Under the pieces are notes generated by a model, which saw nothing but the letters and a program-made list of their open reading frames with translations, was not told the DNA's origin and ran no database searches. DNA of 44,426 nt, taken from positions 1 to 44,426 of the forward strand of contig CAJOJR010000004.1 in the NCBI GenBank assembly GCA_905235065.1. The letters run 5' to 3'. Both the position numbers and the translations under genes were made by a program. Positions 31,300 to 42,004 of the stretch are shown here, in pieces. The stretch's first letter is position 1; every line of letters begins with the position of its first letter. Source of the stretch: an uncultured Bacilli bacterium. Lineage in GTDB: Bacteria; Bacillota_I; Bacilli_A; RF39; UBA660.

Positions 31300-32875
<1,576 letters not shown>

Positions 32876-34082: not shown

Positions 34083-35225
34083 ATGAAAAAAGTAATAATA
34101 GTCTTATTATTTACTTTTTTATTTATTCCATTTAAAAGCATTAAAGCTATTAATAGTGATAATTTGCCATTAAATAAAGACATCAAAATTAATAGTGTAA
34201 ATGAAAAATATAAATGGTATAAATTAAAAGAAGTGGATAGTAGAAAAGAAAATGTTTTTGAACATATTTGCGAGCATTTGGAATTAAAAGAAACCGAATA
34301 TTCTTCTTGGGTAAGTGAAAAACCAGAAGCAAAGTATGGAAGAATAATTGAAGAAAAAGAAGAAGCTTCTTCTTCTGAAGTTAAATATTCTGCGATTATG
34401 ATTGATAATGTACTTACTTTAAATTTAAGAACAAAAGAAATAAAACTTTATGATGATAATGGGAATGAAATAAAATATAGATCTGTTATTTGCTATAATT
34501 GTACATCAACATTTCCAAGAGAAAACCTTTTTGATAATGTTTATAGTACTTATTTTGAAATAAAACACAATCAACCTATAACATTACTTTTAAATGAAGA
34601 AACAACTAAAAATATAAGAGTGCAATTTATTTATGATAAAGAAGATTACTTGTTTGGATTTAGAATATCAAAATTGGATAAAAATTATAATGTTCTTGAA
34701 TCAAAAGAAGAAAATGATTCAACATTACGAAATCTAAGTTCTCCAGCTTATTCAAGTTATATTAATTCTAATAAAGTTAATTGGTCAAGTGATAGTAAAA
34801 CTAAATATTATAGGTATAAAGATTCCTATTTATTATGTAATGAAAGAGAATATTTAGATGAATATTATGACTTTGTTGAAGATTATATTAAAGATGAAAA
34901 TCAAATCAACAAGTATTATGACTATGATGAAGTACTTTTGGAACCCCAGATAGTTGAAAAAGAAGTATTTAAAGAAATTGTTGTTCCAAAAGAAAAAATA
35001 GTAAACAAGTATATTACGATTGAAAAAGAAAATGATTCTCAAAAAGATGAAAAAAATAATGAATCTAAACCTTGTGAATATGTAATTAATGATACTATAA
35101 AAGAAAATAAAAATAGTAATGCAAAGAAATTAAGTTTTAAAATTTATGCTGTATTTACTTTATTTTTGTTGCTAATTGTGTTTTTATGTTTATTCCTAAG
35201 AGAATCACTAAAAAAATGTCGATAA
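34083..35225 (+). CDS. Unrecognised secreted protein with C-terminal membrane anchor
   Basis: 380 residues. Signal peptide MKKVIIVLLFTFLFIPFKSIKA; a mainly beta, Lys/Glu/Tyr-rich body with two Cys in VICYNCTST; a Glu/Lys-rich stretch with LVP-like repeats (EKEVFKEIVVPKEKIVNKYI) about 300-325; a single membrane helix (YAVFTLFLLLIVFLCLFL) and a short basic tail. GAGGAGGT gives ATG 34083. I do not recognise the family. Lying between dacF and spoIIAA, it may be involved in sporulation, but nothing in the sequence proves it. Confidence 0.65.
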   Translation: MKKVIIVLLFTFLFIPFKSIKAINSDNLPLNKDIKINSVNEKYKWYKLKEVDSRKENVFEHICEHLELKETEYSSWVSEKPEAKYGRIIEEKEEASSSEVKYSAIMIDNVLTLNLRTKEIKLYDDNGNEIKYRSVICYNCTSTFPRENLFDNVYSTYFEIKHNQPITLLLNEETTKNIRVQFIYDKEDYLFGFRISKLDKNYNVLESKEENDSTLRNLSSPAYSSYINSNKVNWSSDSKTKYYRYKDSYLLCNEREYLDEYYDFVEDYIKDENQINKYYDYDEVLLEPQIVEKEVFKEIVVPKEKIVNKYITIEKENDSQKDEKNNESKPCEYVINDTIKENKNSNAKKLSFKIYAVFTLFLLLIVFLCLFLRESLKKCR

Positions 35226-35241
35226 CTTTATTTTTCTAATT

Positions 35242-35259
35242 TTGTCGAATGTGTATAAT
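35242..35259 (+). promoter_or_regulatory. Spo0A box and -10 element before spoIIAA
   Basis: TTGTCGAA (35242-35249) is a perfect match to the Spo0A-binding 0A box. TATAAT follows at 35254-35259. spoIIA is a known Spo0A-activated operon in Bacillus. The box sits in the spacer rather than on the -35, so the exact mode of control is uncertain; no sigma-H -35 (AGGAWWT) was found. Confidence 0.65.
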
Positions 35260-35300
35260 TTAATAAAAAAATATTCTAAACTTATTAGGCAGGTGAAATA

Positions 35301-35642
35301 ATGTTTGAAACAAATGTAGAATATAAGAAAGGAGTACTTTTTATAAGAATATGTGGTTCACTTGATAAAACCAATTCTTATAAATTAAAAAAAGAAATTG
35401 TTCCACTAATATTAAAAAATGGATTTAAATATGTTGTTTTAAATCTAAATAATGTTGATATATTGGATAACTATGGAATAGAAGTAATTGATGAAATAAA
35501 TGATGCAGTTTTAAAATTTAATGGTAAAACAACATTAATCGATAGTAAAAAAATAGAAAAGAAAATAAAAGGTACGCTAATAGACAATATACTATATAAA
35601 GTTGGAAATGAAAGGATGGCATTAGGAATATTTGAATTATGA
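35301..35642 (+). CDS. spoIIAA: SpoIIAA-like anti-sigma factor antagonist (STAS)
   Basis: 113 residues, one STAS domain: GVLFIRICGSLDKTNS, then VVLNLNNVDILDNYGIEV. In Bacillus SpoIIAA, Ser58 in MDSSGL is phosphorylated by SpoIIAB, and only the unphosphorylated form frees sigma-F. Here the same place reads DNYG: Asn57-Tyr58 replace Ser57-Ser58, so the phosphorylatable serine is missing. No spoIIAB lies between this gene and sigF: its last four bases are the first four of sigF. AGGTGA precedes the ATG. The identification rests on the STAS pattern and on synteny (before sigF and spoVA). Confidence 0.82.
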   Translation: MFETNVEYKKGVLFIRICGSLDKTNSYKLKKEIVPLILKNGFKYVVLNLNNVDILDNYGIEVIDEINDAVLKFNGKTTLIDSKKIEKKIKGTLIDNILYKVGNERMALGIFEL

Positions 35643-36295
35643 AAAAGGATATTTGGAAATTAATAGAAGAAAACAAAAATTTAATTTATAAAATAGCTCA
35701 TTCCTATAGTGGATGTGCTAATATTGATGATTTATTTCAAGTTGGATGTATTGGAATAATTAATGCATATAAAAATTATAAGGATAATTATAATACTAAG
35801 TTTTCTACTTATGCATATAACTATATTCTTGGTGAAATAACTAATTATTTGAAGAATGATAAATTATTAAAAATGCATGGAGATAATTCTAAAATATATA
35901 AACTATATGAAAAAGCAAGAGATTATTTAACTTCTTCAAAAGGATATAACCCAACATTAAAAGAGATATCTGAATTTATGGGAATAAGTGAATATGACTT
36001 ATATAATGCTATTAATAATAACAGTGAAATAATGAGTATTGATTCCGAAATAAAGGATAATTTATATTTACATGATGTAATAGGTGAAGATCATAGTGAA
36101 GATATTGATAGTAAAATTGATTTGAAGAATATAATCGATAATCTAGATGTGAATGATAGAGAATTAATCAATTATAGGTATTATCAAGATTTCACACAAA
36201 GTGAAACTGCATCATTAATGGGAATGACTCAAGTACAAGTATCTCGTAGAGAAAATAAAATACTATCAAAAATGAAAAGTGAAATGATTAGATAA
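35639..36295 (+). CDS. sigF: Sporulation sigma factor, sigma-F-like
   Basis: 218 residues. Region 2: DDLFQVGCIGIINAYKNY, then KFSTYAYNYILGEITNYLKND; region 3 in YNPTLKEISEFMG; region 4 helix-turn-helix TQSETASLMGMTQVQVSRRE, almost identical in pattern to Bacillus SigF (SQVQVSRLE). In Bacillus it is the first forespore-specific sigma. Start ATGA overlaps spoIIAA. Slightly shorter at the N-terminus than Bacillus SigF (about 255). It could also serve sigma-G functions if no separate sigG exists; the family resemblance alone cannot exclude that. Confidence 0.88.
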   Translation: MKKDIWKLIEENKNLIYKIAHSYSGCANIDDLFQVGCIGIINAYKNYKDNYNTKFSTYAYNYILGEITNYLKNDKLLKMHGDNSKIYKLYEKARDYLTSSKGYNPTLKEISEFMGISEYDLYNAINNNSEIMSIDSEIKDNLYLHDVIGEDHSEDIDSKIDLKNIIDNLDVNDRELINYRYYQDFTQSETASLMGMTQVQVSRRENKILSKMKSEMIR

Positions 36296-36340: not shown

Positions 36341-36356
36341 AAAATAGGTGAGATAT

Positions 36357-36791
36357 TTGGATAAAAGTGAATACAAAAAAATAATTAAATCTAAAAAACC
36401 TAAAGAAGATGAATTTAAGAATATAATAATATCTTTTTTTGTTGGTGGTCTTTGTGGAATTTTTGGACAAGCATTAACTGATATTTTTAATAAGTGTTTT
36501 CATTTTAGTATAAATGATTCTTATATGTTAACAATGGTATCTTTGGTTTTAATTGGTTCAGTTTTAACTGGATTAGGTTTTTTTGATAAAGTAGTATCAT
36601 TTTGCAAATGTGGATTAATTGTTCCTACTACTGGTTTTGCTCATGCAATGACAAGTGCTGCAATGGATACGAGAAACGAGGGACTAGTTAAGGGAATAGG
36701 AGCTAATATATTTAAATTAACTGGAAGCATTATTCTTTATGGAATAGTTGTTGCTTTCTTCGTCTCATTAATAAAGGTGATTATCGGATGA
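36357..36791 (+). CDS. spoVAC: Stage V sporulation protein AC
   Basis: Membrane subunit of the SpoVA channel that moves dipicolinic acid into the forespore and out at germination. 144 residues, about four hydrophobic helices. Family segments: IIISFFVGGLCGIFGQALT, VLIGSVLTGLGFFDKV, GAGLIVPTTGFAHAM-like (here CGLIVPTTGFAHAMTSAA). TTG 36357 was chosen because AGGTGA ends 5 bases upstream; an in-frame GTG at 36348 overlaps that site. ATGA overlap with spoVAD. Confidence 0.93.
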   Translation: MDKSEYKKIIKSKKPKEDEFKNIIISFFVGGLCGIFGQALTDIFNKCFHFSINDSYMLTMVSLVLIGSVLTGLGFFDKVVSFCKCGLIVPTTGFAHAMTSAAMDTRNEGLVKGIGANIFKLTGSIILYGIVVAFFVSLIKVIIG

Positions 36792-38163: not shown

Positions 38164-38874
38164 ATGCATAATTTCATTATAAATGATTTTGATGGTCCTT
38201 TAGATTTATTACTTCATTTATTAAAACAATCAAAAATGGATATATTTGATATAAATATAGTAGAGATAACTCACCAATATATTGGTTTTATAAATAAAAT
38301 GGAAAGTATGAATCTTGATATTGCTTCTGAATATTTAGTAATGGCTTCAGAACTTATTGAAATGAAAAGTAGATATTTACTTCCTAAAAAAGAAGAAGAA
38401 ACAGATGAATATGAAGAAAATCCTGAAGATGAATTAAAAAGAAGATTACTTGAATATCAAATATATAAAGAAAGTACTGAAAAGTTTAAAGAACTTGAAA
38501 CAACAAGACATGAAGTTTACACTAAAAGTCCTGAAAGAATAACTGATTTAAGTGACACAAAAATAATTAACGAAGGAGTAACAACTTATGATTTATTAGA
38601 AGCCTTACAAAGAGTGCTTGGTAGACTTGAAAAAAGTAAGCCTATAACAACAAAAGTTGCTAGAAGAGAATTATCAGTAAAAGATAGAGTTGTAAAAATA
38701 AGAGAGTTATTATTCAAAAAGAAAACATTAAAATTTGAAGAACTGTTTGAAGAAGTTAATAGAGAGTATGTGGTTGTTACATTTTTATCAATATTAACAA
38801 TGGCAAGAGATAACGAAATAAGAATTTCTCAAAAAAATAATTTTGGCGAGATATATTTAGAAAGAGTTGATTAA
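38164..38874 (+). CDS. scpA: Segregation and condensation protein A
   Basis: Kleisin subunit that bridges the SMC heads in the SMC-ScpA-ScpB condensin complex. 236 residues. N-terminal FDGPLDLLLHLLKQSKMDIFD is the family hallmark; MASELIEMKSRYLLPKK closes the N-terminal domain; an acidic linker follows, then a C-terminal winged helix (VVTFLSILTMARDNEI). GTGGT lies upstream. Stop is one base before the scpB ATG. Confidence 0.95.
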   Translation: MHNFIINDFDGPLDLLLHLLKQSKMDIFDINIVEITHQYIGFINKMESMNLDIASEYLVMASELIEMKSRYLLPKKEEETDEYEENPEDELKRRLLEYQIYKESTEKFKELETTRHEVYTKSPERITDLSDTKIINEGVTTYDLLEALQRVLGRLEKSKPITTKVARRELSVKDRVVKIRELLFKKKTLKFEELFEEVNREYVVVTFLSILTMARDNEIRISQKNNFGEIYLERVD

Positions 38875-38875
38875 C

Positions 38876-39434
38876 ATGAATTTAAAAGGAATTATAGAAG
38901 GTATTTTATTCGCAGTAGGAGATGAGGGAATATCTTTAAATGATCTTATTAAAATTTTAGATAAATCTCCAGAAGAAATAAAAAATACTTTAATGGAACT
39001 TAAAAATGATTATGAGAGTGATGATAGAGGAATAAGAATAACATTTTTAGGTATTTAAGTTAACAACAAAAAAAGAACATAAAGAATATTTTGAAAAACT
39101 ACTCGTTGATACTAAAACCTACTCTTTATCAGATGCCGCATTAGAGGTACTTGCAATTGTAGCATATAATGAACCAGTAACCAGATTAAAAATCGATGAA
39201 ATAAGAGGAGTAAACTCTTCTGGTATGGTTAGAAAATTAGTCGCAATGAATTTTATAAAAGAATGTGGTAAAGCCGATACATTGGGTAGACCAAATTTAT
39301 ATAAAACAACAAATGATTTTTTAGATTACTTTGGCCTTGCAACTAAAGAAGACTTACCAAAACTTGTTATTAAAAAAGAAATAGAAAGCGAAGATAAAGA
39401 TTTATATACTTCAACTTATAAAGAAAATATGTAG
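38876..39434 (+). pseudogene. scpB: Segregation and condensation protein B, frameshifted
   Basis: Winged-helix dimer subunit that binds ScpA. The N-terminal part (MNLKGIIEGILFAVGDEGISL ...) runs to a stop at 39056-39058 after [10 protein letters not shown]; the rest continues in the next frame from about 39051 ([18 protein letters not shown]), through the hallmark [22 protein letters not shown], to 39434. Removing one base near 39050 restores a protein of about 186 residues, normal length. As scpA is intact and the downstream part keeps all family residues, a recent mutation or a sequencing error is likely. Confidence 0.85.

Positions 39435-40123: not shown

Positions 40124-42004
<1,881 letters not shown>

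Follow-up and report, generated by a model that had tools for sequence, protein, structure and literature searches.

We identified an operon in an uncultured Bacilli bacterium (RF39; UBA660) in which a gene encoding a SpoIIAA-like STAS protein runs directly into sigF. The operon lies on contig CAJOJR010000004.1 of assembly GCA_905235065.1, and the window is the whole stretch of 44,426 nt that was analyzed. The operon and its promoter region consist of the following features.

35241–35249, forward strand: Spo0A box TTTGTCGAA, 60 bases 5' of the SpoIIAA-like start codon
35254–35282, forward strand: putative sigmaA-like promoter elements, from columns conserved in 122 aligned promoters
35301–35642, forward strand: SpoIIAA-like STAS gene, 113 aa, lacking both the phosphorylated serine (N57-Y58 instead) and the SpoIIE-docking Arg (I66 instead)
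35639–36295, forward strand: sigF, 218 aa, TIGR02885 at 162 bits, with sigma regions 2, 3 and 4
36348–36791, forward strand: spoVAC, TIGR02838 at 150.5 bits
36788–37765, forward strand: spoVAD, PF07451 at 286 bits
37762–38112, forward strand: spoVAE (SpoVAEB type), TIGR02839 at 119 bits, with its start predicted from the 116-aa length in relatives

The STAS gene and sigF overlap by four bases (ATGA), and sigF is followed by spoVAC, spoVAD, spoVAE and then scpA. An initial annotation of the sequence had described this overlap and the lack of spoIIAB between the two genes. Both reading frames are present at the coordinates above, and the operon leaves no room for spoIIAB. A deletion or misassembly at 35640 is discounted, since a congener (91% identical) has the same junction and so do 143 distinct family loci. 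In these loci the STAS gene is directly followed by sigF with a gap of -41 to +69 bases, often overlapping, whereas the same interval in eight sporulating relatives of the same class measures 394–506 bases and is filled by spoIIAB. One genome (G002) is exceptional in having a 388-aa gene inserted at this position, and no fusion of STAS and sigF is found among the matches listed. The junction without spoIIAB is real and not an assembly error, and chance is not an issue. What had been presented as a peculiarity of this operon is, however, a trait of the whole family.

The sigma factor scores 162 bits as SigF compared with 110 bits as SigG, and its best match in the PDB is the sigmaF of entry 1l0o. 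The TIGR02885 score falls below the curated equivalog cut-off of 321.45 bits, as do the scores of relatives with a full spoIIA operon. The features expected of a SigF are present: sigma-70 regions 2, 3 and 4 (with regions 2 and 4 conserved), SigF as the best family, and a position upstream of the spoVA genes. A distinct sigG occurs elsewhere in the same genome (G000 contig 1), adjoining spoIIGA-sigE. Compared with the congener, sigF has a dN/dS of 0.068.

Judged by gene content, the members of this family are predicted sporulators, and we know of no cultured representative. Our sample comprised 386 genomes from 150 genera, 252 of them with at least 90% completeness and at most 5% contamination. 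SpoIVA is strongly matched in about 335 of the 386, and the STAS gene co-occurs with it (Fisher p 3e-10). Within a sample of nearly one genome per genus, SpoIVA is missing only from G006 and G034; these also lack the STAS gene, and their sigF- and sigG-like factors are only housekeeping-type matches. All but one of the 30 family genomes tested contain SpoIIR. The genome containing the window carries SpoIIGA, SigE, SigG and SpoIIR, together with Spo0A (268 bits against a 200-bit cut-off) and a SigH-like factor.

The SpoIIAB-SpoIIAA-SpoIIE system is the textbook mechanism that allows just one sister cell to start a gene program of its own. Profile searches of the 386 family genomes (and, for SpoIIAB, of a sample with one genome per genus) found neither SpoIIAB nor SpoIIE above the curated cut-offs, while SpoIIAB from the eight relatives scores 157–186 bits, above the cut-off. 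In addition, none of 37 family genomes searched has a SpoIIE-domain phosphatase, and at least one is found in each of the eight relatives. The genome containing the window (an 878-kb assembly, searched essentially whole, from a family of many genera) has no match to HATPase_c_2. A hidden SpoIIAB was sought by profile searches of family and class genomes, with PF13581, and by tblastn of this genome with the SpoIIAB proteins of the eight relatives; the matches that were examined are all histidine kinases. Thus the search for a SpoIIAB/RsbW-type kinase and SpoIIE that the initial annotation had proposed returned neither, and a spoIIAB elsewhere accompanied by a serine-bearing SpoIIAA paralogue, which had been put forward as contrary evidence, is not present in this genome.

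We also considered whether SpoIIE could be concealed among weak matches. The strongest of these are frames of 540–670 aa (G300, G207, G123, G392 and G146), and the three that were read are RsbU-RsbW-type fusions of PP2C and HATPase domains. The many matches near 250 aa in length resemble housekeeping PP2C phosphatases in size. A few family genomes encode single chains (L130:3293–5296, L132:4491–6350 and L133:3882–5780) in which a partner-switch pair, a PP2C phosphatase with an RsbW-like ATPase, is combined with a sensor part, and their genes do not adjoin sigF. A short HATPase frame of 146 aa in one genome (G029) could count against the loss of SpoIIAB. The family genomes mostly or all appear to be metagenome-assembled, that of the window is 91.7% complete, and its scpB gene contains a one-base frameshift, so ordinary spoIIAB and spoIIE genes might be concealed by missing contigs, mis-binning or failed detection. 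We regard this as highly improbable, however, given the number of genomes in which neither protein reaches the cut-off, many of them of high quality, the 143 loci in which the junction is read through, and the detection of both families in the eight relatives.

The STAS protein matches PF01740 at 37.6 bits, above the cut-off. Of the named families, ant_ant_sig and SpoIIAA fit best, but neither reaches its cut-off; for SpoIIAA (TIGR02886) the score is 37.8 bits and the curated equivalog cut-off 114.75 bits. The structure model (pLDDT 93.8) is a confident STAS fold, and its best match in the PDB is the SpoIIAA of a SpoIIAA-SpoIIAB complex (1tid_B, TM 0.91). It is the only STAS protein of this kind in the nearly entire genome.

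Alignment to B. subtilis SpoIIAA (PDB 1auz) places D56-N57-Y58-G59 of the window opposite D56-S57-S58-G59, which bears out the earlier reading of Asn-Tyr in place of Ser-Ser at residues 57 and 58. S58 is the phosphorylation site of SpoIIAA, and the SpoIIAA residue R67 lies close to E675 of SpoIIE (PMC11418112). We equate this arginine with column 66 of our alignment, where all eight SpoIIAB-bearing relatives have Arg. Nearly all STAS proteins of the family have another residue there, which in the window is Ile. Among 88 family STAS proteins, D56 (97%), G59 (94%) and G19 (100%) are retained, and position 57 is occupied by 17 different residues. Tyr58 did not prove to be conserved; only 9 of the 88 have Tyr, the most common residue being Lys (32), and Ser occurs in 11, Glu in 9, Asn in 7 and Thr in 3. 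E7, R16 and N48 were set aside as new features, being shared with Bacillus or Geobacillus SpoIIAA.

In a tree of the STAS protein and sigF, based on a short search and with many weak inner branches, the family forms one clade with full support. Ser or Thr at position 58 is scattered within the clade, requiring 12 changes, and the deeper branches often carry Lys58. The phosphorylation site was therefore probably lost early, with Ser or Thr reappearing sporadically. The initial annotation had proposed that the site was free to drift without a kinase. Loss of Ser58 does accompany loss of the kinase, but drift is only part of the account because of the prevalence of Lys58 on the deeper branches. 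The phospho-switch acting on sigmaF, comprising SpoIIAB, SpoIIE, Ser58 and the docking Arg, has almost certainly been removed across this family of small-genome Bacilli, most simply in its common ancestor or earlier, while sigF, the spoVA genes behind it, the promoter with its Spo0A box and the other core sporulation genes tested are retained. The suggestion that control of sigmaF has been rewired is supported by the absence of SpoIIAB and the loss of Ser58, and is strengthened by the absence of the SpoIIE phosphatase as well.

The promoter of the operon contains TTTGTCGAA, which we take to be a Spo0A box from the established Spo0A consensus. The perfect box precedes the STAS gene in 122 of the 143 family loci, where first-order simulations would give 0.45; it is on the coding strand and mostly 45–65 bases ahead of the STAS start. 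The conserved context in the 122 loci is TTCTAGTTTTGTCGAA-N4-TATAAA-N17-TAnATT, and its counterpart in the window spans 35241–35282. There, TATAAT at 35254–35259 (placed as a -35 element, though it could itself be a -10) is separated by 17 bases from TAAACT at 35277–35282. The arrangement resembles a sigmaA-type promoter with an adjacent Spo0A box. Only five perfect boxes occur in the nearly entire genome, including the one at 35241, and the Spo0A it encodes has a matching DNA-binding domain. In the same genome a perfect box lies just outside the start of a KinD-like histidine kinase gene (L126:6814–7924), and it is possible that Spo0A exerts feedback on this sporulation kinase.

Some lineages have lost the STAS gene too, leaving a Spo0A box directly before sigF. 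The STAS profile has no match in 67 of the approximately 335 SpoIVA-bearing genomes, and the STAS protein must therefore be optional. No STAS gene adjoins sigF in G009, G014, G016 and G025, and in the first three a perfect Spo0A box immediately precedes sigF. From the relatives to the family there is thus a series of box-AA-AB-sigF, box-AA-sigF and box-sigF. Two genomes without a STAS gene (L117 and L119) have two perfect boxes 26 bases apart before sigF.

These losses bear on whether the STAS protein still takes part in sigmaF control. It could instead be a remnant that serves another partner or is being lost, with sigmaF regulated only by Spo0A-driven transcription and downstream checkpoints. 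The lineages with the box straight before sigF are consistent with this, as are several weak, eroded STAS copies among the family matches. The distances between STAS proteins likewise show no excess correlation with those between sigmaF proteins (0.21 given SpoVAC, compared with 0.22 for the control of STAS and SpoVAC given sigmaF), and coevolution of the two proteins was rejected as a line of evidence. However, the STAS gene has a dN/dS of 0.087 relative to the congener, residues are invariant or nearly so in 88 divergent proteins, the gene adjoins sigF in 143 loci, and its loss is the minority state. We therefore consider a remnant unlikely. The STAS protein is under purifying selection and, given the dN/dS and the confident fold of the model, its gene is not a decaying frame.

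The promoter resembles a Spo0A target, so by analogy to B. subtilis and clostridia sigmaF would be expected to be produced ahead of division or at about that time. Something must then restrain it, or no restraint is needed. One candidate is a replacement anti-sigma factor, either unlike SpoIIAB or diverged past recognition, on which the STAS protein would still act, unmodified, as an anti-anti-sigma factor. In favor of this, the protein retains its STAS fold and, at the site that formerly faced SpoIIAB, the D56-G59 loop; histidine-kinase-like ATPases are present, and sigmaF made ahead of division would need holding. Against this, the genome containing the window is devoid of HATPase_c_2 matches and the operon has no space for such a gene. 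The sigmaF-specific inhibitor Fin was also dropped as a replacement, as it was not found, nor was it found in the relatives. We judge a replacement anti-sigma factor to be improbable. A kinase not homologous to SpoIIAB may likewise have taken its place.

The explanation we favor overall, with modest confidence, is that the switch has been removed, that the STAS protein is a phosphorylation-independent accessory of sigmaF, and that control is exerted by transcription and later steps. As elsewhere among spore formers, phosphorylated Spo0A would switch on transcription of the STAS-sigF unit. The STAS protein would need no phosphorylation to work and would most likely be an accessory that binds sigmaF or the sigmaF-RNA polymerase and tunes the activity or stability of sigmaF. 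Where and when sigmaF acts would be set by transcription and later steps (SpoIIR-SpoIIGA-sigmaE, engulfment and sigmaG), and no longer by the balance of kinase and phosphatase at the septum. An accessory role is favored by the overlapping genes, the selection on the STAS protein and its persistent adjacency to sigF. That it is a direct partner of sigmaF is a plausible hypothesis, though somewhat short of probable. Direct binding, raised in the initial annotation, gains nothing from the distance correlation, and several lineages keep their sporulation genes without the STAS gene. More tentatively still, the family may be a natural clade of endospore formers that starts forespore transcription without partner switching, in which the series of promoter arrangements represents stepwise dismantling and the STAS protein is a new type of phosphorylation-independent sigmaF regulator.

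The operon shares the STAS protein, sigF and the subsequent spoVA genes with the spoIIA operon (spoIIAA-spoIIAB-sigF) of Bacillus, Clostridium and related Bacilli. A Spo0A box is also upstream in several relatives, and the family STAS fold is closest to the SpoIIAA of 1tid/1th8. However, the family lacks spoIIAB, SpoIIE, the phosphorylated Ser58 and the docking Arg. In the RsbV/RsbW/RsbU switch of sigmaB, RsbV has the same STAS fold (6m36 is among the top matches), but no stand-alone RsbW-type kinase was found in the genome containing the window. MlaB of the MlaFEDB lipid transporter, another STAS protein, works by binding its partner stably and directly, and its phosphorylation has not been demonstrated (PMC7367683). 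Unlike the protein described here, for which no ATPase partner is known, MlaB binds an ABC ATPase and has Thr at the phospho-position.

A 2024 survey found spoIIAB and spoIIE reduced or absent in the order RF39 and predicted different regulation (PMC10868615). That survey is based on KO gene presence, and its main text is silent on spoIIAA and contains no analysis of the operon, Ser58 or the promoter. The literature searched contains no account of an AA-sigF unit, of the paired loss of Ser58 and the docking Arg, of the Spo0A-box promoter or of the step without the STAS gene, and a phrase search for SpoIIAB loss gave no match. As far as we found, what is new is the evidence from the operon, the residues and the promoter, while the reduction of spoIIAB and spoIIE in RF39 was already known. 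Once spoIIE is deleted, neither Bacillus licheniformis (PMC13118988) nor Clostridium beijerinckii (PMC7522474) sporulates. If the switch is indeed lost throughout a family that keeps SpoIVA, SpoVA, SpoIIR, sigmaE and sigmaG, it would be replaceable, and the minimum required for cell-specific sigmaF activity would become a testable question. One classifier lists spoIIAB among nine genes present in every predicted spore former and calls RF39 non-sporulating (0%; PMC12536801), and predictors that lean on spoIIAB may misjudge such gut bacteria as unable to sporulate.

Several other genes in the window are of interest. Directly upstream of the STAS-sigF promoter, 34083–35222 encodes a beta-rich, secreted protein that has a single membrane helix at its C-terminus and matched no known family or fold. 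Homologues hold the same place in 38 of the 72 family loci that include an upstream gene. The product was dropped as a replacement for SpoIIE because it is secreted with almost no cytoplasmic part and its gene is upstream of the Spo0A box. Between a dacF-like carboxypeptidase gene and the sporulation genes, 32517–32870 encodes a collagen-like protein of GPTGPTG repeats, possibly a spore-surface protein. The scpB gene (38867–39431) is split by its frameshift near 39052, with 90–91% identity to the congener on either side, and the frameshift is either an assembly error or a recent mutation. About 700 bases past scpB, 40124–42004 encodes a 626-aa protein resembling a large serine recombinase, which suggests that a mobile element adjoins the operon.
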